Shown here: one piece after another, positions 1,956 to 24,384 of the stretch
Numbering within the stretch: the first letter of the stretch is position 1
Layout: every line of letters begins with the position of its first letter
NCBI GenBank assembly: GCA_945900945.1
Contig: CAMDKL010000025.1
Coordinates: forward strand, 1 to 49,298
DNA from: Pirellula staleyi DSM 6068
GTDB lineage: Bacteria; Planctomycetota; Planctomycetia; Pirellulales; Pirellulaceae
Direction of reading: 5' to 3'
DNA: 49,298 nucleotides
Notes under the pieces: generated by a model
Database searches by the model: none
The model's input: the letters and a program-made list of their open reading frames with translations, nothing else
What the model was told of the DNA's origin: nothing
Program-made: the position numbers and the translations under genes

Positions 1956-3938
1956 CTAAGCGATAACTTTGCAAACCTGCTTGTCTGCCAGGTTCAGCGC
2001 TCCCGCCAGCCCCAACAATTGTACAAGCTGATTTCTCACCGTGTCAGTACCACTATTTGAAAGCAGCTTGGCGATCAACGCCGCAACGCTCAAATCCTTT
2101 ATATCCCCCGAGTCCAAATGGAATTGTTCCAAGAGTCCGCCGAGGCGTTCCTTGAATTGCTCAGGGTTTCCTGTAAAGAAAGTGTCTTTAATGTCGGTCG
2201 CAACTTTTGAACTCAAAACAAATCGGTCGATCGCTTTGCCTCCCTGTACCGCTGCACTAATCTGATCAAAAAACTGACCATCGCCGCCGATGATATCGAT
2301 TTTGGCGGACCTCAGGGCCTCGCTGAGAACCAATGCTTGGCTTTCCGATATGGACTTCTGAGCCGAAATCGCGGCGATCTCAATTTGCTTGTCCTTGTCG
2401 AGGCGGAGCTTGAACTCCTCATGGTCTTTACCGACCGTGTCGAGGATCTTCATCGCATTGGCTTTTTCCGTAATCCCTTGGGCCTCTGCTGTATATTTTT
2501 CACGAAGCACTCGAGCCTCAGCCATCCCCTGTTCTTGAGTCGCTGTTGCTTTGGCCTGCATGACCTCCGCTTCGGCTAGCCCCTTGGCGGCAAAGTCAGC
2601 CCTGGCGGCACTGGCCATTAGCTTCATCCCCTCCGATTTCTTTTCGGCTTGGTCTCGGTTCGCTTCGGCTTCGAGGCGAATCTGAGCGGTCTGGCTTTCG
2701 GCTGATTTGAGGGCGGCTTCAGCTGCTTTGATCTCTTTGACTAAAGACTGCTCCGCAGCCATCTCGGCAGCAGTTACCTCGATCCGTTTGGTTCGATCCG
2801 CTACAGCAAACGCTTCGGTATCGAGGATCTTTTGTTTTTCTTCGACGACGGATCGCTCGACCATCACCCGTTCGCGAATCACTTCCTGGATGTTGCGTCG
2901 TTCCGTTTCGAGGACTTTGTCTTTTTCAACGGTAGCCAATCCAACAACTCGTTCCCGCTCAGTAATCTCCAACTGCCTATCGCGTTGGATGCGTTCGAGT
3001 TCGATTCCGTCGGTTCGTTCCTTGTTGCGTTGAGCGACAAGAATCGTTCGATCCTTGTTTTGAGTTGCGATCCCGATTTCTTCTTCGGTCGTGATACGTG
3101 CTCGTTCGCCTTCCAATCGATTTTCTTCACGTGATTTGGTTGCGGTCGCGTTCTCTCGGGCTTGGATTTCCGCTACCTCGCGCTTTTGGCGTTCGGTCGC
3201 TTCAATCCGCTGACGTTCTAATTCGAGAATCGCTTCTTGGGCTTCCACGTCTTGCTTCTTGAGAGTTTTTTCCCGTTCACGCGTAAAATAGTTTTCTTTG
3301 ATTTTTTCGTTGGACGTTAGTTCCGTGATCTTCTTGATACCCTCGGCATCCAGAATGTTGTTTGGATTGAGCAGTTCGAGGCGTGTTTGTTCTAAATAGT
3401 CGATCGCACAGTCGTCTAGTCGGTAACCGTTCAAGTCTGTTCCGATGACTTTCAAAATTTCATTCTTGAACTTATCTCGCTTATCGTACAACTCAACGAA
3501 CTCAAACTGTTTTCCGACCGTCTTAAGCGCCTCGGAAAACTTTGCGTCGAACAATTCACGCATGGTTTCAATTTGAGAGGCACGTTTGCAGCCGATGGAC
3601 TGCGCTACCTCTTTGATTTCGTCCGCTGTTTTATCTACGCGAATAAAGAACGCCGTTTTAATGTCGGCCCGGATGTTGTCTTTGCAAATAAGACCTTCTG
3701 ATCCTTCTCTCGCAATTTCAAAGCTCTTGAGGGTCAAGTCCATTTTTTCGTAGCGGTGGATCACGGGCCAAATCAACGCACCGCCATCAATTACGACCTT
3801 TAGCCCCCCCATGCCCGTCTTTACGATTGCCTCATCGGGGCCGACTTTCACGTAGAACTTACCGGCCACGATCGCAAGCGAGACGATAAAGAGCAATACC
3901 GCAAAAACAATAGAAATGATAGTAAATACAATAGTCAT
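1956..3938 (-). CDS. yqiK: Flotillin-like SPFH-domain protein, YqiK type
   Basis: The 660-residue protein begins with a membrane segment at residues 2-26 (IVFTIISIVFAVLLFIVSLA), followed by an SPFH/band-7 domain (about 28-200) and a long charged coiled coil (about 240-560) rich in EKxxE/RQREA patterns. The C-terminus (about 565-660) has the flotillin-like GGDGQFFDQI motif. Such proteins oligomerise on the inner membrane and organise membrane microdomains. The ATG at 3938 is chosen over an in-frame upstream start because it overlaps the stop of the YqiJ-like gene as ATGA, showing translational coupling. It is longer than E. coli YqiK (about 550 residues), mostly through the coiled coil and tail. 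A partner role with YqiJ is inferred from this conserved pairing. Confidence 0.92.
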   Translation of the reverse strand: MTIVFTIISIVFAVLLFIVSLAIVAGKFYVKVGPDEAIVKTGMGGLKVVIDGGALIWPVIHRYEKMDLTLKSFEIAREGSEGLICKDNIRADIKTAFFIRVDKTADEIKEVAQSIGCKRASQIETMRELFDAKFSEALKTVGKQFEFVELYDKRDKFKNEILKVIGTDLNGYRLDDCAIDYLEQTRLELLNPNNILDAEGIKKITELTSNEKIKENYFTREREKTLKKQDVEAQEAILELERQRIEATERQKREVAEIQARENATATKSREENRLEGERARITTEEEIGIATQNKDRTILVAQRNKERTDGIELERIQRDRQLEITERERVVGLATVEKDKVLETERRNIQEVIRERVMVERSVVEEKQKILDTEAFAVADRTKRIEVTAAEMAAEQSLVKEIKAAEAALKSAESQTAQIRLEAEANRDQAEKKSEGMKLMASAARADFAAKGLAEAEVMQAKATATQEQGMAEARVLREKYTAEAQGITEKANAMKILDTVGKDHEEFKLRLDKDKQIEIAAISAQKSISESQALVLSEALRSAKIDIIGGDGQFFDQISAAVQGGKAIDRFVLSSKVATDIKDTFFTGNPEQFKERLGGLLEQFHLDSGDIKDLSVAALIAKLLSNSGTDTVRNQLVQLLGLAGALNLADKQVCKVIA

Positions 3939-4675
3939 TGCTGGGATCCAATGGAGGTCGGTTTCGAGGTGGTTGTCGTTGCAGAAACGATGTAGATGCG
4001 TTTTTTTTCGTCGTAATGTGTCAGCCAAACCCGAGTGCCTTTGGGTAAATGCGGGCCATCGGTTCGCACATTCAAAAGAAGAGGTGCGCCTGGGGTTTTA
4101 TATTTGACTTGTCCGTTCTCTGGTGTTGCGTCGAACGAGCTGATTTCAGCTTCCTCACCTACCAGAGAAATCGATGTCAACTCGTTGGAGTCAAACCAAC
4201 CTCGCATCGGCTGGGTTATCAGTTTGGTAACAAGCAATCCCAAGAAGAGGTTTCTAGCGATCATGATATTGACTGCTAGGAAACCTGGAACTTCAAAAAA
4301 AGTGGTATCGATACAGACCCAAAACAGTATCGAGACAGACCACCAAGTGAGCGTGAAAATCCCGGCCCACAAAACAATCGGCAACCGCTTCAAATTCAAC
4401 CACTTTGCAGGCGTTAGTACGACGGATCCCATTGCGTCACCAAGTGCATGCGAAATGGTGTGGCTCAGTCCATCCCCATCTCCGTGACCGCCCGAAAACG
4501 GATTGTGGAAATGCCACGATGCAGCAAGATGGCTATCCAATCCACCCATGACGATTGTCATAAGACTCCAAACAACGAGAACACCGAGTATTATCGTTGC
4601 TGGAAGAACCGGCGCAGCTAGGAGTGATGAAGCGAATTCAAACACGAGAGTTCTCGATGAAAGGAGCCAATCCAA
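3935..4675 (-). CDS. yqiJ: YqiJ-like OB-fold inner-membrane protein
   Basis: The 246-residue protein has three hydrophobic segments (about 24-46, 97-122 and 132-153), then a soluble C-terminal domain of about 75 residues with the alternating strand pattern of the NfeD/YqiJ OB fold (ISLVGEEAEISSFD ... GTRVWLTHYDEKKRIYIVSA). The linker after the first segment is rich in His, Gly and Asp, as in the YqiJ N-terminal domain. Proteins of this class are encoded next to flotillins and are thought to work with them at membrane microdomains. Here the stop codon overlaps the flotillin start by four bases. No catalytic serine protease domain of the long NfeD form is present. The identification rests on layout plus partner. 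Confidence 0.8.
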   Translation of the reverse strand: MDWLLSSRTLVFEFASSLLAAPVLPATIILGVLVVWSLMTIVMGGLDSHLAASWHFHNPFSGGHGDGDGLSHTISHALGDAMGSVVLTPAKWLNLKRLPIVLWAGIFTLTWWSVSILFWVCIDTTFFEVPGFLAVNIMIARNLFLGLLVTKLITQPMRGWFDSNELTSISLVGEEAEISSFDATPENGQVKYKTPGAPLLLNVRTDGPHLPKGTRVWLTHYDEKKRIYIVSATTTTSKPTSIGSQQ

Positions 4676-4923: not shown

Positions 4924-5835
4924 TCAAATTCCAGCCACACTGTTTGCGAGCGTACCCAGTTCTTTCCAGAAGGTTACGTACTGGTTTCGATCTTTGATAT
5001 AGTTTTCGTCGAATACTGCTCTGCGAAGCTCCTCACGCTGTTCCACAAATTTGGAGAAATCACGCGGGTCATCGGGGCGGAAAACTGGGCAAGGTCGGTC
5101 GTATACAATCGCGGCACCCTGCTCGCCCTGGGTATGAAAGCGTGAAAGTCCAATGACCCGATCGGCAACATAGATCGCTTCATTCAATTCGTGTGTTACC
5201 ATTAGAATTGTATACTCCGGTCGTCGACCTTCTCGCTTAGCGATCAGGTTTTCTTGGTAGAACCGCAAGAGCATCATCTGCAAATCCTCCCGCATCGCTT
5301 CATCGAGTGCGCCAAAGGGTTCGTCCAATAAAACGATTTTTGGACGCATGATAAAAGCTTGTGCTACCGCGACCCTTTGCTTCATTCCACCAGACATTTC
5401 ATGTGGGTATTTGCCACATGCTTCGGATAGCCCAACAACATTCAGAAAGTCAAGAGATTTCTTCAAATGGTCTCGGCGTTTGGCAAAATACTTTCTCGTT
5501 GCTAAGAATCGCATCCACATGGACGTTTCATCCATCTTGAGCCCAAAGCTAACGTTCTTCTCGGCTGTTAGGAAATCGTAAAGGGCATAGTTCTGGTATA
5601 CGATTCCAACGTTTCGATTCGGTCCTCGCACTGGCATTCCATCGGTAAGGATCTCACCATGGGTTGGCGGATGCGTACCAAGAATGGCTTTGAGAAGCGT
5701 GCTTTTGCCGCAACCGCTGGGCCCGACCACGGCTACGATTTGGCCGGGTAGGACTTGCAAATCGATGTTGTCGAGGACTCGGAACGAACCGAAAACATGA
5801 CTCAAGGATTTTATTTCTAAGGCGTATTCACTCAC
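4924..5835 (-). CDS. ABC transporter ATP-binding protein, nitrate/sulfonate/taurine class
   Basis: The 303-residue protein carries all ABC ATPase motifs: Walker A GPSGCGKST (38-46), Q-loop Gln81, signature SGGMKQR (148-154), Walker B IVLLDEP (167-173) and switch His215. GPNRNVGIVYQNYALYDFLT and the overall order match the SsuB/TauB/NrtD class that powers uptake of small anions or organic nitrogen/sulfur compounds. The C-terminal 65 residues (from about 239) extend beyond the usual 255-residue core and contain a charged helical segment. It is encoded 26 bases downstream of its permease. No periplasmic binding protein gene lies next to the pair in this window, so the substrate cannot be assigned. 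Confidence 0.92.
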   Translation of the reverse strand: MSEYALEIKSLSHVFGSFRVLDNIDLQVLPGQIVAVVGPSGCGKSTLLKAILGTHPPTHGEILTDGMPVRGPNRNVGIVYQNYALYDFLTAEKNVSFGLKMDETSMWMRFLATRKYFAKRRDHLKKSLDFLNVVGLSEACGKYPHEMSGGMKQRVAVAQAFIMRPKIVLLDEPFGALDEAMREDLQMMLLRFYQENLIAKREGRRPEYTILMVTHELNEAIYVADRVIGLSRFHTQGEQGAAIVYDRPCPVFRPDDPRDFSKFVEQREELRRAVFDENYIKDRNQYVTFWKELGTLANSVAGI

Positions 5836-5861: not shown

Positions 5862-6671
5862 TTAGTCTACGCACCATGGGCAAAGTTTCTGACGCAAAGT
5901 ATCCAGACCCCATTCCACAATCAAGCCGATAAACGCAAGTATCGCGAGGTAAACAAAAACGATGCTCATATTTAAAATGCGAGATTGCATTCGAATTTGG
6001 TATCCCAATCCAGCATTGGCGACGGCCATTTCGGCCGCTAACAGAAAGATAATGGCGGGTCCGGTTTGTAACCGTATGTTATCTATGATTTTTGGCAAAA
6101 TCTGCTTCCAGATCACTTCGTAAAGAATCTCGAATTCCGATGCCCCAAGCGTGTAAGCTTTATTGATCGCTTCGTCGCTAACATCTTGCCGGACGGCAAG
6201 ATAAATCGACTGTGTCATAGAAAAAAAGATACCCAGTGCAACCAATGAAGTGAACAACACCTCCCCTGTTTCGAAAATATTAAAGTAAATGGACAACATG
6301 GCAATCTGAGGTATTTTTGACAGAAATTTGAAACTTAAAAAGAGCGGAGCTTCTATCCATCGGTAGGCGCCCATCAAAACGCCAACAACAACAGAAGCCG
6401 CCACGCCGATGCCCATTCCAATAATCAAACGTGAAAGTGTCGCGCGCATGTCGACCCAGAACATGGGCGATTTGGGATTCTCCGGCTCGCCCTGCGGCTG
6501 AAATATCTTGTTGAGCCCTTTCACTAGCATTTCGAAGGAGGGAATAGTTGTTTGCAGCGGATTAGTACGAGTTGCCCTGGCTGCGAGCATCTCATAAGCA
6601 CCTAGCAATACAGCAACTCCACCAATAGCGAGCAGCCAGAATAGCCACCGAGGAATGTCACGTCGAATCAT
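5862..6671 (-). CDS. ABC transporter permease, nitrate/taurine class
   Basis: The 269-residue protein has about six membrane segments, starting with WLFWLLAIGGVAVLLGAYE, and the binding-protein-dependent permease (BPD_transp_1) fold. The cytoplasmic coupling loop reads EAINKAYTLGASEFEILYEV, the EAA motif that docks on the ATPase encoded just downstream. In place of the usual P-I-P-x-x-A-x-x-P-L of taurine/nitrate permeases it has SKIPQIAMLSIYFNIFETGE, a divergent form. It is the first gene of a two-gene operon whose promoter should lie in the 306-base divergent region shared with the Uma2 gene. Confidence 0.9.
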   Translation of the reverse strand: MIRRDIPRWLFWLLAIGGVAVLLGAYEMLAARATRTNPLQTTIPSFEMLVKGLNKIFQPQGEPENPKSPMFWVDMRATLSRLIIGMGIGVAASVVVGVLMGAYRWIEAPLFLSFKFLSKIPQIAMLSIYFNIFETGEVLFTSLVALGIFFSMTQSIYLAVRQDVSDEAINKAYTLGASEFEILYEVIWKQILPKIIDNIRLQTGPAIIFLLAAEMAVANAGLGYQIRMQSRILNMSIVFVYLAILAFIGLIVEWGLDTLRQKLCPWCVD

Positions 6672-6977
6672 TCAGTCACTTTTCCAAAGGAATTTCCCGT
6701 CGATGGAAAGCAGAAAATTCCGCGATCAAGTCGATTGGTATAGCTACGGTTAATGGCAAAGGTTGTTAAAAAAACGATGCACTCGCTACCGATTGCGACG
6801 CTAAATTCAATTCCGCCCAGTCTACCACAACGGATTCAACTGCCAAATGAGAGCCATAGGAATAGCTAGAAACAGCAGCGAAATGCGTCCTTCCGGGCCA
6901 AAAAATGCATAGCTTGTTTCCGTTCGGACAGTACAATGGGAAGGGGGGAATTTAACCCATCTTTTAATTGGTGATCC
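6672..6977. other. Divergent intergenic region
   Basis: This 306-base region separates the leftward ABC transporter operon from the rightward Uma2 gene and must hold promoters for both. I could not assign reliable -35/-10 elements or an operator, and saw no gene remnant, tRNA or strong hairpin. Confidence 0.5.
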
Positions 6978-7553
6978 GTGGAAGCTATCGTTTCGTCTGA
7001 AATGCGCACTGTGTTGGAAAACATCCGTTGGGAGACGTTTGTGGATCTTGCCGAACAACGTCGAGGCAGTGTTCCGAGGATGACGTTTGATAATGGAGTG
7101 CTCGAACTAATGAGTCCGCGAAGACAACACAAAAACATCGGTTGTTTGATCGGTCGATTAGTCGAGACCTATACCGAGGTCCTAGGGATCGAAATACAGA
7201 GCGTTGCGTCGACAACTTTTAAGCGAAAAGATTTGCAAAAAGCCTTTGAGGCCGATGAATCATATTACATTCAACATGCAGAACAGATTCGCCCGAAGGA
7301 AGAGATTGATCTCGCGATCGATCCGCCGCCTGATCTCGTGATTGAGGTAGAAATCACATCGTCGGCGATTCGCAAACTGAAGCTCTTCGCCGCGATGGGC
7401 GTACCCGAAGTTTGGCGTCACGATGGTGAACGGTTGCAAATGTTCGCGTTGCAAGACGATCAATACGAAGCGATCCATTTCAGCAAGTCCTTGCAAGTCC
7501 TTGCCAGGGCTTACCCCCACGGCAATCAATTTGATATTGAATCGACGGTTTGA
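6978..7553 (+). CDS. Uma2 family putative restriction endonuclease-fold protein
   Basis: The 191-residue protein matches the Uma2 (DUF820) family: an N-terminal strand-rich part with YxxxxG-like context (MTFDNGVLELMSPRRQHKNI), FEADESYYI (Glu91/Asp93), then the PD-(D/E)XK-like core PPDLVIEVEITSSAIRKLKLF (Asp119, Glu123, Glu125, Lys134) and GVPEVWRHDG. Members are abundant in cyanobacteria and planctomycetes, usually as isolated genes of unknown role with a nuclease-like fold. The predicted start is a GTG at 6978; an ATG at residue 9 (7002) is an equally good choice. It stands alone, 165 bases before the large ATPase gene. Confidence 0.88.
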   Translation: MEAIVSSEMRTVLENIRWETFVDLAEQRRGSVPRMTFDNGVLELMSPRRQHKNIGCLIGRLVETYTEVLGIEIQSVASTTFKRKDLQKAFEADESYYIQHAEQIRPKEEIDLAIDPPPDLVIEVEITSSAIRKLKLFAAMGVPEVWRHDGERLQMFALQDDQYEAIHFSKSLQVLARAYPHGNQFDIESTV

Positions 7554-7718
7554 TTGCGGCGAAACGTTGCTGGTGGGAGGGTTTCGAAAATCCTTGCTTG
7601 GCTAATTTTTAGCTACTAGGTGAAACCGGAGCCTAGGTCGCCAGGTTTTTCGGCCTACTGTAAATGGTACGGTCCCTTTTACACCGTATTCCTGGCAAAC
7701 TGACCGCTTCAAGCTAAT

Positions 7719-10700
7719 ATGAGATGGAAACCACAGTTACCATTTCGCGTTGGCCCAATGTCTGAAAGTTCAATGACCGAATCCGCTCTGGCCTCCGGAA
7801 CCTATGCAGTGCTTCGCAATCGTCTGCGCGAGGCGGCAAGCGATCTCCGTCAGCGTTTCGAAAAACTTCATGCCGAGCGGGCTGCTGTTTTCGGTACTAT
7901 CCAGACCCGTTTGAATTCAACCACGCACGTTACCACCGACCATAACTGCATTCCTCGCGACCTTTTCGCGACGGACACGCACATTCTCCTTGGGTACAAC
8001 GTCCAATTTGGCCTCAAGACAGAAATCGTTCCAAGCGACGTTTTCTCCTACTACCGCTTCGATGGTCAACATGCGCGTCAGGAATCGCTCGACCCGTTGC
8101 TTAGCGAAGCGTTTAGGCGGGATTTTCAAGAACTCTATCGATACTACCGCAATGCAACTTTCCTGCGATTCTTTCAAAGTGGTCCGTTGCTCTACATGGT
8201 TTTTCAAACCGGCAAAACCACAACCAATTTCAAAGCCTTCAAGTGGTCCCTGAATGGCAAGGAATTGCAATACGTCGATAATCGTAGCGAAGCCGAAGTC
8301 CGCGCACCCTCGCAACATGCTTTCCAATGGAAACGAGCCACACGTGAAGACCATCGGCACGGAGCACATCCACACATCTCCATCGAAGACAAACTCTTCG
8401 TTGAGTGCATTCGTGGCGACCTAACCATCAAGGTAGAGGACAATACGGAGGATGGGCTTGGGATATATCGTGAACCAGTCGATAGCCTAGACCAAACGCT
8501 CGACGACGCCGAAACATTCTATGCGATCGTCGGCAATTTAATCCTGCTTAAAATCAAACCGTACCAAGAACAAAACTATCGCTATTTGGTATTTAGCACA
8601 AAACGCTCCGAGGTCACACGGCTCGATTCGATTGGAACTGCATGCGGCCTGCTTCCAAACGACCACGGCATCATTTTTTCAAACGGATTCGTATTGCAAA
8701 CCGGCGTCGCCAAGTGTTTTGACCATGGACTAGCGGACCTCGCATTCGATCGGTTAATAAAATCCTCCAATGGCGAAGATTTTCTGTATCTTTTCTACCA
8801 CCCAGAGTCAGGTACGTATCTCCAGCTTCGTTACAACTTGATTAGCCAAGAAGTGGATACGCCTTTGGTCTGTCACGGTCAAGCATTTCTTCACGATGGC
8901 GTGATGATCAGTATGCGGGCAGTCGACACGCCACAGAAGCACCACGCCCTTCAAGTTTGGCAGACGCCGTTCACCGGTCCTGATTATCGCCCGAGCGTTC
9001 AATCCGATTCGTTGCTGTTCAAGATCGGCAACCACGACCTTGTTCGAGGTATGGCCGAATGCCAAGAGCTGCTGACTCTGATCGACAAGGATGAATCGTA
9101 CGCCGACTTGTACGCGGATCTCGCAAAACGTGCGACCGATGTACTCGATGGCTTTTTTTGGCTGGATCGCGAGGAGGTGTTCGTCCTTTCTGAACCTGTC
9201 CTCAAGATTCGCGAGGCGGCAACCGCCGCAGTGGATGAGTTTGAAAAGGTTGTCCGCGCTCGAAACGAAACCGCAGCCTCGCTCGCCAAAACACAAAACG
9301 ACACACAAGAGCTGCTCAAAACGATAGAACGAGCGAGGTTCGAACAGATCGACGATTTCGTCGATAAACTGGCTGCCATTCGGACCCAACGCGGAGCAGC
9401 CATCCAGCTTCGAGGGTTGCGATACATAGAGCTTCCAGCCGTTGCGACTATGGAGTCCCAATTAATCGAAGCGGCGGATCGGCTGGGTGTTCGGTGCGTT
9501 CAGTTTCTTTTGTCCCCCAAGTCATTGCTGCCGTTCGCAACGCAGATCGAAAAGCTATCAACGGCTGTGCCCGCGGTCAGCAAGTCGGCCACCGGCAAGG
9601 AACTCGATCGCGAGTTTGAAAAGATCAGTGGCGCCCTGAAACTTTTGATCGAAACCATTTCGCAACTCCAAATCGATGACTTGGCACAGCGAACTACGAT
9701 CATTGACGGTGTTGGGGACTGCCTGTCCCAGCTCAACAAGGCCCGATCGATTCTCAGAATGCGGTTGCGAGACTTAACGACCAGCGAGATGGAGGCTGAT
9801 TTCGCGTCGCAATCGAAACTGCTGGATCAGTCAACCGCCGGTGTGCTGGACTCCGCCGATAAGCCGGACAAAGTCGATGCCTCGTTGACGCGTGTGTTGA
9901 TGCAAATCGAGGAATTGGAAGGACGTTACGCAGACTCCGAGACTCTGCTACTACGGTTAACCGAGAAAAGGCAAGCGATCTGCGATTCGTTTGAGACTAA
10001 ACGGCAACAGTTGGTTGAGGTGCAAACGCGCCGAGCCAACTCGCTGGTGGCTGCGGCGGACCGAATCCTTGCCGGTATCGCTTCAAAGACTGCGCGCATC
10101 GATGAGCTCGCGGAGTTGAATTCGTACTTCGCTTCCGATTTGATGGTGGAAAAGGTCCGGCGTATCGCCGATCAATTGATTGAGTTGGGCGATTCCGTTC
10201 GTTGCGAAGACGTTCGGTCTCGGCTTAAGACCATCGCCGATGACTCTGTTCGACAGCAGCGAGATCGTCGAGAATTGCTCAGCGATGGCAACCGAGCAAT
10301 CCGGCTTGGACAGCACAATTTCAGCGTGAATCATCATGCGATCGAATTGACAACGTTGGTTCGCAATGGACAGTTGCAACTGCATTTAACCGGTACACAG
10401 TTTTTTGAACCGCTGAGCGATCCGGCGTTGGATGACGCAAAACAATTATGGGATCAGCTGTTGCCTAGCGAATCAGCCACAGTCTATCGCGGTGAGTATT
10501 TAGCGTATTCGATTGTACAGATGTGGGATTCGAGTCCTGTGATTCCCAAGGATGTTGATACCTCCAACACGATGAATGCTAGTGCGTTCCTATCGCTTGA
10601 CGTCGATGGACGCATCGCTCGTGTGCGTGATACGATGCAGTCTCGTTATCAAGAAGGGTATGTGAGGGGAGTGCATGACTCGGACGCGGCGAGAATCCTG

Positions 10701-12959
10701 GCCGCTGTTCTTGAGAGCAGAAACGCTTTAGGCATGCTCGCCTTCTCACCCAAGTTGCGAAGTATTGCGTGGTATGTTTGGGATCGATTGATTCCGAGCG
10801 TCGTTCGTGCGTCTACGGAGGTATGGGTGATTGCCTTCGGTATGATGGACTCGATGTTGGCAAACACGCAGCGAAACCAGTCGGCATTAAGTCGATTGCG
10901 ACGGCTGTTGAAAGAACACGATCAGGGAATGCTTCGAGGCCTTTCAAGATCGGAAGCCGCTCAATATCTGCTTATGCAAATTCAACAACTACAGCCAGAT
11001 CGAAGCCCGAGTGTTCATCCAAGGGCCAAGGAGATTGTTCATAGGACGAAGAGTTCGATGCCCGAATCGTCATGGAACTCGATACTGTCTGCATTGGCAA
11101 TTCAAAAGAAAAATCCGATGGACGGATGGCTACTTGCATTGCGTATTGCTGACGGATTGATCCACCAATTTTCCGCAAAATTAGAGCAGGATGCCAAGGA
11201 CCCAGCCAGCGACTATCGGGAGGAAGTGGTATTGCAACTCCTCATTGAACCAATGGCAACTACGGTCGTAGCGAGCAATACGAGGCCTTCGCACACATTG
11301 CAGTCCACGATTCTGCATCTTTCAGGAGATCACTCTCGTATTTCCAATGGTGCAATGCCTTTCCATTATCACGAATTCCAAGAGCGTGTTGCCAACCATG
11401 CGAAACAACATGTTCCGCGTTGGTTGCAACTGCAAGCCACCAAACAACGATTGATCGCACAAGCTGAAAAACGCCTACGGTCCCATGAGTTTCAGGCCAA
11501 GGTTTTGACAAGTTTTGTCCGCAATCAGCTTATCGATCAAGTCTATTTGCCACGTATTGGCGACAACATGGCCAAGCAGTTGGGCGCTCTTGGGGACAAC
11601 AAACGAACGGATCGGATGGGTTTGCTGTTGCTCATTAGCCCACCGGGTTATGGCAAGACGACATTGATGGAATACGTTGCCAACCGTCTTGGACTGGTTT
11701 TTGTGAAAGTCAATGGACCAGCAATTGGCCATTCAGTAACTTCGCTCGATCCAAGCGAAGCGACGAATGCCGCCGCGAGAGAAGAAGTGCAGCGTATCAA
11801 TCTGGCTTTGGAGATGGGTGACAACACCATGTTGTATCTAGACGACATCCAGCATTGCAACGTGGAGCTGCTCCAGAAATTCATTCCGTTGTGCGATGCA
11901 ACGCGACGGATCGAAGGGGTTTGGAATGGACAATCCAAAACGTATGACTTGCGCGGTCGCAAGTTTGCAGTGGTGATGTCGGGCAATCCTTATAATGAGA
12001 GCGGTGAACGCTTTCAAATCCCTGATATGCTTGCCAACCGAGCTGACGTCTACAATCTGGGGGAGATTATTGGAGATAGCCGCGAGGCGTTCGAATTGTC
12101 GTACCTTGAAAATTGCCTTACAAGCAATTCTGTACTCCAAGCTCTTTCGCGATGTTCAAATGCCGATCAACGAGCCGTTATTGCAGCTGCAACGCGAGGC
12201 ACAACAGAGGGGCTCTCGCTTGAAAGCAATTTATCGCCGGATAGTGTTCAAGAGATGATGTCGGTTTTGAGCAAACTCAATACGGTACGCGATGTGGTTT
12301 TGGCGATGAATCGAGAATACATTCGCAGCGCATCGCAATCGGATGACTATCGCACCGAACCGCCTTTTAAATTGCAAGGTAGTTACCGTAATATGAATCG
12401 AATCGCTGAAAAAGTAGTTCCCGTCATGAACGATACCGAGCTGCATACGCTAATTCTTTCATGCTACCAACAGGATTCGCAAACACTGTCCTGCGATGGG
12501 GAGTCGAATAGGCTCAAGTTCAATGAGCTGCTTGGGGTACTAACTGCCGATGAACAAAAGCGTTGGAATTCAATCAAAGCAACTTTTTCGCAAAAGACGA
12601 AGCTCAAGGGGCTTTCGGGGGTGGATTCGACAGCACAGGTGTTAGATTCGATTTTGAGCCTGCGAGATGGACTGGATGCTATTCAGAATGTGCTGCTAAC
12701 GGCTACAAATCAACGTGCGGTGGAGGCTAACAAACCGCCGGTCGACCCAAGAATTGTGGTTCAGCATTCTGTGCCGAGGGTCATGACGGAGTTGATTCGG
12801 AGTCAGTTTCAGTTGCTATACGATGGTCTGCGACCCTTACTTGAAAATGCGAGCCAGCAAACGCAGACCCAAGAGCGACTCCGGGCCGCTATTGAAAACT
12901 GCCTTCAACGCTACAAGGAACTGGAAAAGGAAGCAAACGAAGCCAAGGAGTTGGAGTAG
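7719..12959 (+). CDS. Giant DUF3686-type AAA ATPase (annotated elsewhere as DNA repair ATPase)
   Basis: This 1746-residue protein starts SGTYAVLRNRLREAASDL and DHNCIPRDLF ... LLGYNVQFGLK, the hallmark N-terminus of the large family labelled 'DNA repair ATPase' with a DUF3686 domain. Residues about 85-480 form the DUF3686 region, about 500-860 long coiled coils, and about 1255-1560 an AAA domain with Walker A PPGYGKT (1308-1314, Lys1313) and Walker B LYLDD (1372-1376). A sensor-like region reads FAVVMSGNPYNESGERFQIP. The label DNA repair comes from weak SMC-like coiled-coil similarity and is not proof of function. The first ATG (7719) is used; ATGs at 7758 and 7773 are possible and the conserved homology starts after both. 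It ends 21 bases from the converging MoxR cluster. Confidence 0.88.
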   Translation: MRWKPQLPFRVGPMSESSMTESALASGTYAVLRNRLREAASDLRQRFEKLHAERAAVFGTIQTRLNSTTHVTTDHNCIPRDLFATDTHILLGYNVQFGLKTEIVPSDVFSYYRFDGQHARQESLDPLLSEAFRRDFQELYRYYRNATFLRFFQSGPLLYMVFQTGKTTTNFKAFKWSLNGKELQYVDNRSEAEVRAPSQHAFQWKRATREDHRHGAHPHISIEDKLFVECIRGDLTIKVEDNTEDGLGIYREPVDSLDQTLDDAETFYAIVGNLILLKIKPYQEQNYRYLVFSTKRSEVTRLDSIGTACGLLPNDHGIIFSNGFVLQTGVAKCFDHGLADLAFDRLIKSSNGEDFLYLFYHPESGTYLQLRYNLISQEVDTPLVCHGQAFLHDGVMISMRAVDTPQKHHALQVWQTPFTGPDYRPSVQSDSLLFKIGNHDLVRGMAECQELLTLIDKDESYADLYADLAKRATDVLDGFFWLDREEVFVLSEPVLKIREAATAAVDEFEKVVRARNETAASLAKTQNDTQELLKTIERARFEQIDDFVDKLAAIRTQRGAAIQLRGLRYIELPAVATMESQLIEAADRLGVRCVQFLLSPKSLLPFATQIEKLSTAVPAVSKSATGKELDREFEKISGALKLLIETISQLQIDDLAQRTTIIDGVGDCLSQLNKARSILRMRLRDLTTSEMEADFASQSKLLDQSTAGVLDSADKPDKVDASLTRVLMQIEELEGRYADSETLLLRLTEKRQAICDSFETKRQQLVEVQTRRANSLVAAADRILAGIASKTARIDELAELNSYFASDLMVEKVRRIADQLIELGDSVRCEDVRSRLKTIADDSVRQQRDRRELLSDGNRAIRLGQHNFSVNHHAIELTTLVRNGQLQLHLTGTQFFEPLSDPALDDAKQLWDQLLPSESATVYRGEYLAYSIVQMWDSSPVIPKDVDTSNTMNASAFLSLDVDGRIARVRDTMQSRYQEGYVRGVHDSDAARILAAVLESRNALGMLAFSPKLRSIAWYVWDRLIPSVVRASTEVWVIAFGMMDSMLANTQRNQSALSRLRRLLKEHDQGMLRGLSRSEAAQYLLMQIQQLQPDRSPSVHPRAKEIVHRTKSSMPESSWNSILSALAIQKKNPMDGWLLALRIADGLIHQFSAKLEQDAKDPASDYREEVVLQLLIEPMATTVVASNTRPSHTLQSTILHLSGDHSRISNGAMPFHYHEFQERVANHAKQHVPRWLQLQATKQRLIAQAEKRLRSHEFQAKVLTSFVRNQLIDQVYLPRIGDNMAKQLGALGDNKRTDRMGLLLLISPPGYGKTTLMEYVANRLGLVFVKVNGPAIGHSVTSLDPSEATNAAAREEVQRINLALEMGDNTMLYLDDIQHCNVELLQKFIPLCDATRRIEGVWNGQSKTYDLRGRKFAVVMSGNPYNESGERFQIPDMLANRADVYNLGEIIGDSREAFELSYLENCLTSNSVLQALSRCSNADQRAVIAAATRGTTEGLSLESNLSPDSVQEMMSVLSKLNTVRDVVLAMNREYIRSASQSDDYRTEPPFKLQGSYRNMNRIAEKVVPVMNDTELHTLILSCYQQDSQTLSCDGESNRLKFNELLGVLTADEQKRWNSIKATFSQKTKLKGLSGVDSTAQVLDSILSLRDGLDAIQNVLLTATNQRAVEANKPPVDPRIVVQHSVPRVMTELIRSQFQLLYDGLRPLLENASQQTQTQERLRAAIENCLQRYKELEKEANEAKELE

Positions 12960-12980: not shown

Positions 12981-13343
12981 CTAGCATACGGCTATTAGTC
13001 GAATCGGTTGGTCCAATTGAGACAACACGAATGGCGATAGGATCGATGCACTTGGTCGTTTGCTGGTGCATTCGAATTGCCAATCAATTGAAATCAGCGT
13101 GCCTTGAACACTGATCGGGCCGCGTGGCATTTGGATTTGGAATTCCTTTTCGCCACTCTTGGAATCGGGGGAACAGTTCTCTGAAAAAACCACTTCGGAA
13201 TCGTCAGTTCCCTTGCCGGAAGTCCGCCAAGATAATTCTAGAGTCCATTGAGATGGAGGAGAATCGAACTCCCAAACCACCTTTACATCTAGCATTTGGC
13301 CAGGTCGGCAAATGGAATTCTCGAGCTTGATTTGTAATGTCAT
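12981..13343 (-). CDS. Small arrestin/Spo0M-like beta-sandwich protein (tentative)
   Basis: The 120-residue product starts MTLQIKLENSICRPGQMLDV and has the pattern of an immunoglobulin-like or arrestin-like sandwich: G-Q-x-L-x-V-x-V-x-W, then LELSWRTSGKGTDDSEVVF and IQMPRGPISVQGTLISIDW. The P-x-S-x-x-G-x-L-I-x-I-x-W ending recalls arrestin/Spo0M-type proteins, but this is fold-level resemblance only. The ATG at 13343 is one base past the stop of the peptidase gene, so it is coupled to it; a longer in-frame ORF upstream overlaps the peptidase gene and is rejected. No signal peptide, so it is probably cytoplasmic. It is the last gene of the MoxR cluster. Confidence 0.7.
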   Translation of the reverse strand: MTLQIKLENSICRPGQMLDVKVVWEFDSPPSQWTLELSWRTSGKGTDDSEVVFSENCSPDSKSGEKEFQIQMPRGPISVQGTLISIDWQFECTSKRPSASILSPFVLSQLDQPIRLIAVC

Positions 13344-13344
13344 T

Positions 13345-14358
13345 TTATAGACCGATCGATTCGTTTGCCTTTGCGATTTCCAAAAACAGACGCTCCAGCT
13401 CATGATAATAGTCGTCTTCAGGAAGTTCTTTCTTTCGCGCCCGCAGCGATTCGATTTGGTCTGACAGCAAATCCGACTGAGCCCTTTGTTCACTGGTTCT
13501 CAGGTCCGATATCCCGAAGTTGGAAACAAGCATTCGACTTGCAAACGGTCCATCCAATTTTAGACCATTGGCCGGGGCCTTAACGGGACGAGCTCCGCGA
13601 TAAAACGAGGCAGGCGTGCCGCGACCGTCGCCATTGTCGTCCAACAACGCTTGCTCAGACGCTAGTCGTCCCTCATTGGCATAGAACTGGGCGACCCGAT
13701 TCGATGCGGCTAGGAATGCCTCAAGGATCGATACGCAATCGTCGTGATCGAGATCCGTTGATGGATCGGTAATCGTTTGCGAAAGATACTCTCCAAATCG
13801 TGCGTAGTTCTGTTCCGATCCACTTTTGGTCGCCGTTATCACAATTCGATTTTCTCCAGATAATGCATTGATAAACGGGCCGCTACTCGACGAGCAATCA
13901 ATAATCAACCATTTTGCCTTGACTTCTGCTAAGGCTTTCGAAATTGCATCGGCGGAAATGTCTGGACCCTTCAAGTTGAACTTGGCCGAAGTTTGATCGT
14001 GCGACCCGTGTCCGATGAGTACCAGCCATCGTTCCTGAAGCAATTCGTTGGGGCTCGTTCCTAATTCGACTTTTGAAATCCAATCAAGGATCTGGGTTCG
14101 ATGCTCTTTTTCGTCGAGCTTCGTGGCGTTCGTTCCATCAATTAGCTGAAAGTCGTCCGATTGAAACGCCGCTCGCCAACGATCCGACCACTCGCGAAAG
14201 GCTTTTCCGTATTCTTCTTCGCCAGCTGCACCGATCACGACCAGAATGGAACGATGAAGCTTTTGCGCTAATGGTTTGGCGGGAAGAACACCCTCCCCCG
14301 TTTCTGCGTAAATCGATAAAAAGAGACAACCAAACCAAAAAAATTTAGGCCATGCCAT
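13345..14358 (-). CDS. Exported C13/caspase-like cysteine peptidase
   Basis: The 337-residue product begins with a short signal peptide (MAWPKFFWFGCLFLSIYA). A caspase/legumain-like core follows: strand SILVVIGAAG, then WLVLIGHGSHDQ with His117 in a GHG motif, and KWLIIDCSSSSG with Cys155 directly after Asp154. RIVITATKSGSEQNYARFG follows, equivalent to the C13 specificity region. In family C13 and caspases the dyad is exactly such a His-Gly and a Cys after a strand-ending Asp. A later segment LLDDNGDGRGTPASFY is also typical of planctomycete C13-like proteins. The ATG at 14358 overlaps the preceding gene by 14 bases; an earlier ATG at 14382 would lengthen the overlap and remove the signal peptide position. 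Substrate unknown; role inferred from the cluster. Confidence 0.78.
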   Translation of the reverse strand: MAWPKFFWFGCLFLSIYAETGEGVLPAKPLAQKLHRSILVVIGAAGEEEYGKAFREWSDRWRAAFQSDDFQLIDGTNATKLDEKEHRTQILDWISKVELGTSPNELLQERWLVLIGHGSHDQTSAKFNLKGPDISADAISKALAEVKAKWLIIDCSSSSGPFINALSGENRIVITATKSGSEQNYARFGEYLSQTITDPSTDLDHDDCVSILEAFLAASNRVAQFYANEGRLASEQALLDDNGDGRGTPASFYRGARPVKAPANGLKLDGPFASRMLVSNFGISDLRTSEQRAQSDLLSDQIESLRARKKELPEDDYYHELERLFLEIAKANESIGL

Positions 14359-23385: not shown

Positions 23386-24384
23386 CTACTGGACCTCAAT
23401 CAATAACCGGTCGACACAATCTTCGACCGAAACGCCTTCGGCCTCAGCCTTGTAGCCCAGCAGCAATCGGTGTCGCATGACGGGGTGTACCAACGCCCGA
23501 ATATCTTCCATCGCGACGTGAGACTGGCCGTTGAGCAGAGCGCGGGCTTTAGCACCGAGAACGAGCATTTGAGCCGCTCGCAATCCCGCCCCCCAATTGA
23601 TCCATTGATTCACGAATGCAGGCGCTTCGGGACGGCCAGGTCGGGATGCGGCAACCAGACGTACGGCGTACCCCGCCACCTCTTCGGCGATCGGCATACG
23701 GCGCACCATCGCATGGAACTTCAATACATCCTCACCAGTAAACAAGGCTTCAATTTTTTCCGGTGTCTTGCTTGTGGTATCTAAAACCACTTGCAACTCA
23801 TCCTTGAATGGCAAGTAATCGATCATCACATTGAACATGAATCGATCTAGCTGTGCCTCGGGTAGTGGATACGTACCCTCCATCTCAATTGGGTTCTGCG
23901 TGGCCAAGACAAAGAACGGCTCTGGCAACGCAAATCTCTTGCCAGCCGATGTCACTTGATGCTCTTGCATGGCTTCGAGCAGTGCCGCTTGTGTCTTGGG
24001 GGGCGTTCGATTGATTTCGTCGGCCAGGATCACGTTAGCAAAAACCGGACCTTTGACAAATTGTAGTGAACGCCTTCCGTCCACTTCGTCTAGTATCTCT
24101 GTCCCGGTAATGTCCGCCGGCATCAAATCTGGCGTAAACTGGATGCGTCGGAACTCCAAATGGAACACCTGCGCTACACTTCGAACTAGCAGGGTCTTGG
24201 CCAGACCAGGCGCACCTGTGATCAGGCAATGTGCACCGGAAAAGAGACAGATGAGTAGCTGCTCGATAACATCCTTTTGACCTACGATCGATTTGGAAAG
24301 CTCCGCATCGATCCTCGCTCGACCTTCGCGTATCTGTTTTACTACCGCTGCTTCTTCGTCGTATTTCTGAGTGACCGTGCTCAA
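23386..24384 (-). CDS. MoxR family AAA+ ATPase
   Basis: The 332-residue protein shows Walker A GAPGLAKT (57-64), Walker B VILADE (118-123), the MoxR pattern NRTPPKTQAALLEAMQEHQV, and the sensor/arginine region ATQNPIEMEGTYPLPEAQLDRF. MoxR ATPases act as chaperones that mature or assemble VWA-containing complexes. It leads the tightly coupled run of genes down to 12981. The start is TTG at 24384: the frame has a stop about 45 bases further upstream with no ATG or GTG between, and the product then begins just before the conserved helix. Upstream lies an unusual leader with telomere-like repeats and three hairpins. Confidence 0.94.
   Translation of the reverse strand: MSTVTQKYDEEAAVVKQIREGRARIDAELSKSIVGQKDVIEQLLICLFSGAHCLITGAPGLAKTLLVRSVAQVFHLEFRRIQFTPDLMPADITGTEILDEVDGRRSLQFVKGPVFANVILADEINRTPPKTQAALLEAMQEHQVTSAGKRFALPEPFFVLATQNPIEMEGTYPLPEAQLDRFMFNVMIDYLPFKDELQVVLDTTSKTPEKIEALFTGEDVLKFHAMVRRMPIAEEVAGYAVRLVAASRPGRPEAPAFVNQWINWGAGLRAAQMLVLGAKARALLNGQSHVAMEDIRALVHPVMRHRLLLGYKAEAEGVSVEDCVDRLLIEVQ

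Follow-up and report, generated by a model that had tools for sequence, protein, structure and literature searches.

A giant DUF3686 ATPase of Pirellula staleyi is probably the motor of a flotillin system, encoded here by a split operon

The DNA considered here is a 49,298-base contig of Pirellula staleyi DSM 6068 (the window), which encodes an AAA+ ATPase of the DUF3686 family at 7719-12959 on the plus strand (1746 residues, ATG start). A flotillin/SPFH gene and a gene for a YqiJ-like membrane protein lie close to it. We consider it probable that the ATPase is the soluble, MoxR-type AAA+ remodelling motor of a three-part flotillin system, with flotillin as the scaffold and the YqiJ-like protein as the membrane partner, rather than a DNA-repair enzyme. 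The label 'ATPase involved in DNA repair' is most likely wrong. A widespread giant ATPase would then carry a misleading name, and would become a testable SPFH-linked remodelling machine.

The association of DUF3686 with flotillin exceeds chance. In a sample of 294 Planctomycetota genomes, 39 encode a DUF3686 protein, and all 39 also have a member of the flotillin clade, always on the same contig. For nine of the 39 (the window genome among them) no neighbourhood was read, and the position of the flotillin gene comes from the genome profile search. The clade was represented by 41 strong matches and five distant ones (E 1e-61 to 1e-67), the line between them being drawn post hoc at the gap from 1.6e-167 to 5.5e-67. 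DUF3686 was present in 39 of the 41 genomes with a strong match; the other two are 72% and 68% complete. This co-occurrence corresponds to a Fisher p of about 1e-46, shared ancestry being ignored. None of the DUF3686 genomes searched whole (39 and 5) was missing flotillin.

Gene order was examined at 120 loci, namely 9 from a plasmid collection, 80 from GTDB, 30 from Planctomycetota and the window, plus 52 loci from the same family, where DUF3686 was found in 57 of 100 genomes (fragments in G316, G326 and G359 were left out). These sets overlap in species. The GTDB set comprises the best 80 of at least 582 confirmed relatives and, being chosen by score, leans to the window's own relatives; the plasmid set comprises 9 of 12 matching records, several of those 12 being chromosome-sized. 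Profiles were seeded with the window and five plasmid loci for flotillin and with the window and three further seeds for the YqiJ-like protein, whereas PspA had two seeds and Tir one. They were iterated on the surveyed open reading frames (ORFs), and the seed loci themselves were counted. Upstream counts were restricted to loci with at least 4.5 kb of upstream DNA. This excluded 0 of 9 plasmid, 20 of 80 GTDB, 1 of 30 Planctomycetota and 11 of 52 family loci, among which flotillin could still be seen at 12 GTDB, 1 Planctomycetota and 8 family loci.

At the remaining loci the flotillin gene was found within 2 kb upstream of the ATPase gene, on the same strand, in 9/9 plasmid cases (a partly circular count, since five of the six flotillin seeds are plasmid loci), 56/60 GTDB, 29/29 Planctomycetota and 40/41 family cases. 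A YqiJ-like gene, likewise upstream and on the same strand, was present at 8/9, 53/60, 29/29 and 38/41 loci, respectively. Usually, therefore, the YqiJ-like gene, flotillin and the ATPase form a same-strand operon. A sequence-only reading of this DNA had suggested that DUF3686 genes are often near SPFH genes in other phyla, and for SPFH the counts bear this out strongly. Exceptions were few. At L057, L058, L063 and G367 flotillin lies elsewhere, beyond the stretch read, and at L103 it is near the ATPase on the opposite strand; at L040, L072, L116, L119, G335 and G381 flotillin is present and a YqiJ-like gene was not detected. The distance matrices of ATPase and flotillin are correlated over 115 loci (r 0.896, shuffles at most 0.12), much of which is explained by shared descent.

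The flotillin gene of the window occupies 1956-3938 on the minus strand (ORF 1956-4028). The probable start is the ATG at 3938, and in the tetranucleotide ATGA it overlaps with the stop codon of the YqiJ-like gene (3935-4675, minus strand). The ORF edges of the two genes are 3691 and 3044 bases from the ATPase, on the opposite strand, so that the pair does lie within 4 kb of the 1746-residue protein, as had been stated. The flotillin is 50% identical to the protein adjoining the ATPase on a Hymenobacter plasmid and 37% identical to the SPFH protein of plasmid pQBR103, which matches Band_7 (E 9.3e-11). For the window protein, Pfam yields no match at E<=0.001 and NCBIfam a weak one to FloT (E 3.6e-8, 32.9 bits where 700 is the cut-off). 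Two profile matches in the genome fall on this same gene, so one gene of the flotillin clade was found. The YqiJ-like protein shows 25% identity to the DUF1449-annotated protein of the Hymenobacter locus (E 7e-10, pairwise) and 55-56% identity to the gene product at the same position in two genus mates; we take DUF1449 to be equivalent to YqiJ. With the limits used, Pfam matched neither the YqiJ-like protein nor its Hymenobacter counterpart. Hydrophobic segments number one in flotillin and three in the YqiJ-like protein, and the product of 1956-3938 is thus the kind of nearby band-7/flotillin protein with a transmembrane (TM) segment that marks the system described in section 19 of PMC11237479. 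An ECF-type sigma factor gene (777-1301) is found directly downstream of flotillin.

The ATPase is a clear member of PF12458: residues 42-480 cover the profile from 1 to 448 of 448 (E 4.6e-177, 589.5 bits with a cut-off of 25). Further Pfam matches are DUF7902 (residues 602-684) and AAA_5 (residues 1303-1429, E 5.3e-8), and neither a DNA-binding nor a protease domain is among them; AAA_3, one of the MoxR models, gave no match at E<=0.001. Across the 6.47 Mb genome (313 contigs, of which the window is the whole of contig C25) this is the single DUF3686 match. An in-frame ATG at 7758 is a plausible alternative for the true start. No hydrophobic segment is predicted. For the N-terminal part, sequence profiles found no solved relative, while those of the C-terminal part match short stretches around Walker A, mostly in Cdc48-type ATPases.

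We modelled the protein with AlphaFold2 from 55 homologues, as residues 1-640 and 846-1746. The first model (pLDDT 88.8) has a helix at 16-58, a predicted beta-propeller at 61-417 (7899-8969, inside the DUF3686 match) and long helices at 438-639; the propeller resembles those of the WD40 and YncE types (Z up to 10.1, best Foldseek E 9.9e-8). The second (pLDDT 85.2) contains an AAA+ module at residues 1260-1608 or so (11496-12542) that resembles MoxR, CbbQ and NorQ proteins. Its best structural match is CbbQ2, with Z 17.5 and 251 of 267 residues aligned, and the ten top matches by Z are all CbbQ or NorQ (Z 15.4-17.5), so the modelled fold is of the MoxR type. K1313, T1314, D1375, D1376, N1423, R1441 and R1557 are invariant across the 55 sequences. 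From general knowledge of AAA+ proteins we take K1313-T1314 to belong to Walker A (residues 1307-1314, 11637-11660), D1375-D1376 to be Walker B, N1423 sensor 1, R1441 the arginine finger and R1557 sensor 2.

These features suggest how such a system could work. Flotillin would form an SPFH scaffold on the membrane with the YqiJ-like protein as its membrane partner, and the ATPase would be a motor equipped with a propeller and long coiled coils, by which it may dock onto the scaffold. The ATP-driven ring could then remodel or disassemble a membrane-bound partner under envelope stress. Candidate substrates are PspA/ESCRT-III-like polymers, where present, or membrane-protein complexes. Vps4 acts on ESCRT-III, and FtsH is paired with HflK/C; the proposed motor would resemble both by analogy, as a likeness and not as membership of either group.

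The operon is split in the window. Three genes separate the ATPase from the YqiJ-flotillin pair, and the two halves, still less than 4 kb apart, are on opposite strands, whereas the genus mates G303 and G364 keep a single operon with 15 bases between flotillin and ATPase. The intervening genes encode an ABC transporter ATPase (4924-5835, minus strand, PF00005), an ABC permease (5862-6671, minus strand, PF00528) and, upstream of the DUF3686 gene, a Uma2-family protein (6978-7553, plus strand, PF05685, E 7.2e-19). It is with these same two genus mates that the DUF3686 ATPase (65/64%), flotillin (81%) and the YqiJ-like protein (55-56%) score best; a 108-residue YqiJ-like fragment in G388 has 67% identity to the window protein yet a lower score. 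Since all three proteins are closest to genus mates with an intact operon, the genes look vertically inherited and the split recent. A local rearrangement in the window's lineage probably left the ABC pair and the Uma2 gene between the operon halves. Another split was seen at L103 (5986-14914, a Bacteroidetes metagenome-assembled genome), where a YqiJ-like gene and flotillin diverge from the ATPase, with about 320 bp between the YqiJ-like gene and the ATPase. The arrangement in the window, with its halves so close together, is a natural experiment on the need for co-transcription.

The ABC genes probably come from a different operon. The permease has an ortholog (70-71% identity) in G303 and in G364, where it sits on another contig and ends an operon of genes for an OmpA-domain protein, a TM-coiled-coil protein, a PspA-like protein and a putative binding protein. 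In G388 the PspA-like gene is missing from this operon, and behind the permease comes an ABC ATPase gene whose product is 67% identical to the ABC ATPase of the window. The 'binding-protein' labels were assigned by eye: two of the proteins have no Pfam match at E<=0.01, and that of G303 has a weak NMT1 match (E 0.051). The window genome carries the orthologous operon genes on contig C20, where neither a permease nor an ABC ATPase gene follows them; the pair next to YqiJ-flotillin has therefore probably been detached from the end of that operon. The ABC ATPase of G303 and G364 is on a different contig from the permease; gene order thus is fluid in the genus, and the adjacency may also be due to chance. 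We rejected ABC genes as a general neighbour of the ATPase, as the permease profile had no match at any other surveyed DUF3686/flotillin locus. We also rejected the idea that a mobile repeat caused the split: a genome search with the stretch 6672-7757 returned no flanking repeat, the matches (71% and 68%) being confined to query positions 308-894, which is the Uma2 gene. The 71% relative is on contig C3.

PspA, which the sequence-only reading had also placed near DUF3686, gave a divided picture. The claim stands for Bacteroidota, where PspA is near the ATPase at 19 of 26 loci (assigned from record titles); these are all of the 19 cases among the 60 GTDB loci, and 18 of them have a Tir-like gene too. 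In Planctomycetota adjacency is rare, with 1/29 Planctomycetota loci and 0/41 family loci. Within about 7 kb of the ATPase, a PF04012 match is present in at least 2 of the 39 DUF3686 genomes (G142 and G027); many contigs are short, so more may have been missed. Counted over whole genomes, PF04012 occurs in 28 of the 39 DUF3686 genomes versus 48 of the 255 others. The PspA link therefore holds as co-occurrence, with adjacency mainly in Bacteroidota. At L055, L101 and PH_G142 (G142:C89) a PspA-type gene starts 15-31 bases after the DUF3686 stop; two of these loci are titled Anaerohalosphaeraceae and Phycisphaerae, and G142 has two further PF04012 matches just upstream of flotillin. On plasmid pQBR103 (L033, 2010-15214), one same-strand island runs from YjfI-PspA, rhomboid, DUF2491, DUF350, DUF1190 and glutathionylspermidine synthase genes to a YqiJ-like gene, SPFH and the DUF3686 ATPase, and thereby unites two operon groups that are kept apart in the sections of PMC11237479 considered here; a phospholipase D gene follows 8.6 kb past the island.

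Several of these results speak against the ATPase being a flotillin-bound motor. The phyletic correlations take no account of shared ancestry. The propeller's Z of 10.1 is moderate, and the beta-propeller is a common fold. PspA is near the ATPase at very few of the Planctomycetota and family loci, and a PF04012 search of the window genome gave nothing at E<=1e-6 (the best match is sub-threshold, with 20.4 bits against 33.9). For the AAA+ part, Foldseek also lists RuvB and MCM, which, together with weak RuvB HMM matches, mean that the fold alone would be compatible with a nucleic-acid role. Even so, it is very unlikely that DUF3686 is a DNA-repair ATPase whose neighbours are a chance legacy of old operon structure. 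The Pfam description and the record annotations say 'DNA repair', and what backs them is limited to the weak likeness to RuvB: the RuvB_N match (E 1.9e-4) reaches 21.6 bits with a cut-off of 27, the RuvB equivalog 21.5 of the required 282, and RuvB chains appear in the Foldseek results. Against this stand the near-obligate partnership with flotillin, the lack of a DNA-binding domain among the Pfam matches of the ATPase and the ten best structural matches, all of them MoxR-type CbbQ/NorQ remodelers, and the earlier suspicion that the label misleads is most likely correct. An anti-phage or conflict system, in place of housekeeping envelope maintenance, would account for the patchy distribution (39/294 phylum and 57/100 family genomes), for the 12 plasmid-collection records and for the Uma2 neighbour, which matches the PADLOC model PDC-S17 (E 4.5e-39). 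We think this improbable: the ATPase, flotillin and the YqiJ-like protein have no PADLOC match at E<=0.001, the constant companions are flotillin and, in Bacteroidota, PspA/Tir, and several of the plasmid records are as large as chromosomes.

The other alternatives concern the split. It seems unlikely that an assembly chimera conceals an ordinary operon, even though the window is one contig of a 313-contig assembly and the genus mates keep the operon intact. Both the 3' flank of flotillin, with its sigma factor gene, and the 5' flank of the ATPase, with its Uma2 gene, differ from those of the genus mates, so that one false join would not be sufficient; the genome yielded one clade flotillin and one ATPase, G+C is even across the region, and flotillin is parted from the ATPase at L103, G367, L057, L058 and L063 as well. 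There is also little to be said for the idea that the flotillin/YqiJ pair now serves the adjoining ABC transporter and that the ATPase has drifted to a separate role. It is true that the four genes for permease, ABC ATPase, YqiJ-like protein and flotillin follow one another on one strand and might be co-transcribed across the 248 bp that precede the YqiJ-like gene. However, the DUF3686 ATPase retains every motor residue and is best matched by the genus mates, and the permease adjoins DUF3686/flotillin at no other surveyed locus.

The operon on contig C20 encodes a divergent PspA-like coiled-coil protein, here called PSPA2 (C20:46588-47397, equal to L272:16589-17398), next to the genes for OmpA-domain, TM-coiled-coil and putative binding proteins. 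Its family occurs in 10 of the 294 genomes, six with DUF3686 and four without (Fisher p 5e-4). In G079, G111, G144, G262 and G288 no more than about 4 kb separates it from the DUF3686 gene on the same contig, which puts it beside the flotillin operon in five of the six genomes; the sixth is the window genome, where the ABC permease and ATPase adjoin YqiJ-flotillin instead. Among DUF3686 genomes, PSPA2 is present in 6 of the 11 that lack a PF04012 match versus 0 of the 28 that have one. The protein is below the PF04012 cut-off (21.3 bits versus 33.9), a profile-profile comparison with PspA gave a probability of 3.4%, and its NCBIfam matches are limited to general coiled-coil models. Its six best PDB matches are Vipp1/PspA, all weak (E 0.009-0.04). 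It is conceivable, if on present evidence doubtful, that in the flotillin/DUF3686 system of Planctomycetota PSPA2 takes the role of PspA, replacing canonical PspA genome by genome, and that flotillin motor and PspA-like ABC module are one membrane-remodelling machine.

On its other side the ATPase faces a cluster of BatA/VWA, DUF58, MoxR and DUF4159 genes (the MoxR gene at 23386-24384). The gene ends 21 bases from this convergent cluster, as had been noted (12959 versus 12981); what faces it is the cluster's small last gene, at 12981-13343 on the minus strand. A GTG-started ORF, 12981-13493, would overlap the next gene by 149 bases, and the ATG at 13343, directly after the stop of that gene, is the likelier start. 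Between 12700 and 13300 we found no terminator-like sites (shuffle mean 0.8), a result that is uninformative on transcript overlap. A functional link between ATPase and cluster was rejected. Profiles of seven cluster and tail genes found no relatives at the other 119 loci, apart from one extra MoxR match, so the adjacency looks incidental.

An operon with PspA, a band-7/flotillin protein, a protein combining AAA+, beta-propeller and coiled-coil regions, and YqiJ has been described in section 19 of PMC11237479 (2024). With DUF3686 modelled as containing a beta-propeller, the association itself is therefore already known. The identification of that AAA+/propeller protein as DUF3686 is ours and is based on the models of propeller and AAA+ module and on the agreement in gene content with the Bacteroidota loci. 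In the literature searched, we found neither the name DUF3686 nor 'DNA repair ATPase' together with 'flotillin', and the ATPase does not appear in the passages of PMC9239133 and PMC13086221 that we consulted. As far as this limited search tells, the counts, the MoxR-type fold, the split arrangement and the PspA-like/ABC lead are new.

The window shares with the system of PMC11237479, as presented in that section, the flotillin and an AAA+ ATPase with a coiled coil and a predicted beta-propeller; the YqiJ-like protein, with its three hydrophobic segments, is a candidate for the YqiJ/YuaF-type 3TM partner. Bacteroidota loci such as L075 (Dokdonia) show the order Tir-PspA-YqiJ-flotillin-ATPase on one strand. 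It differs in that its operon is split and divergent, with ABC and Uma2 genes intervening and no canonical PspA nearby. Neither PspA nor Tir profiles matched in the window, which thus has no CesT/Tir-PspA dyad, and together with the lack of a PF04012 match at E<=1e-6 in the genome this points to an abbreviated form of the described system. Section 18 of the same paper describes ABC-PBP-OmpA operons linked to PspA/Snf7. The operons of C20, G303, G364 and G388 resemble these in their OmpA-domain, TM-coiled-coil and putative binding-protein genes; a PspA-like gene is part of them in C20, G303 and G364 and not in G388, a permease follows in G303, G364 and G388, and an ABC ATPase in G388. Unlike the published operons, the window genome has its permease and ABC ATPase detached and beside YqiJ-flotillin, and its PspA-like protein is far from PF04012.

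The pairing of an SPFH membrane scaffold with an AAA+ machine also recalls HflK/C-FtsH as presented in the passages that we consulted. This likeness is functional only, for the DUF3686 ATPase lacks hydrophobic segments and its Pfam matches include no protease domain. CbbQ and NorQ usually work with a VWA partner, NorD or CbbO; a search for a VWA partner, made with one VWA protein only, returned no match. The likeness to CbbQ/NorQ lies in the AAA+ module and its alignment with CbbQ2, at an identity of about 15%, whereas the DUF3686 ATPase differs from them in joining the module to a propeller and a coiled coil in one polypeptide.

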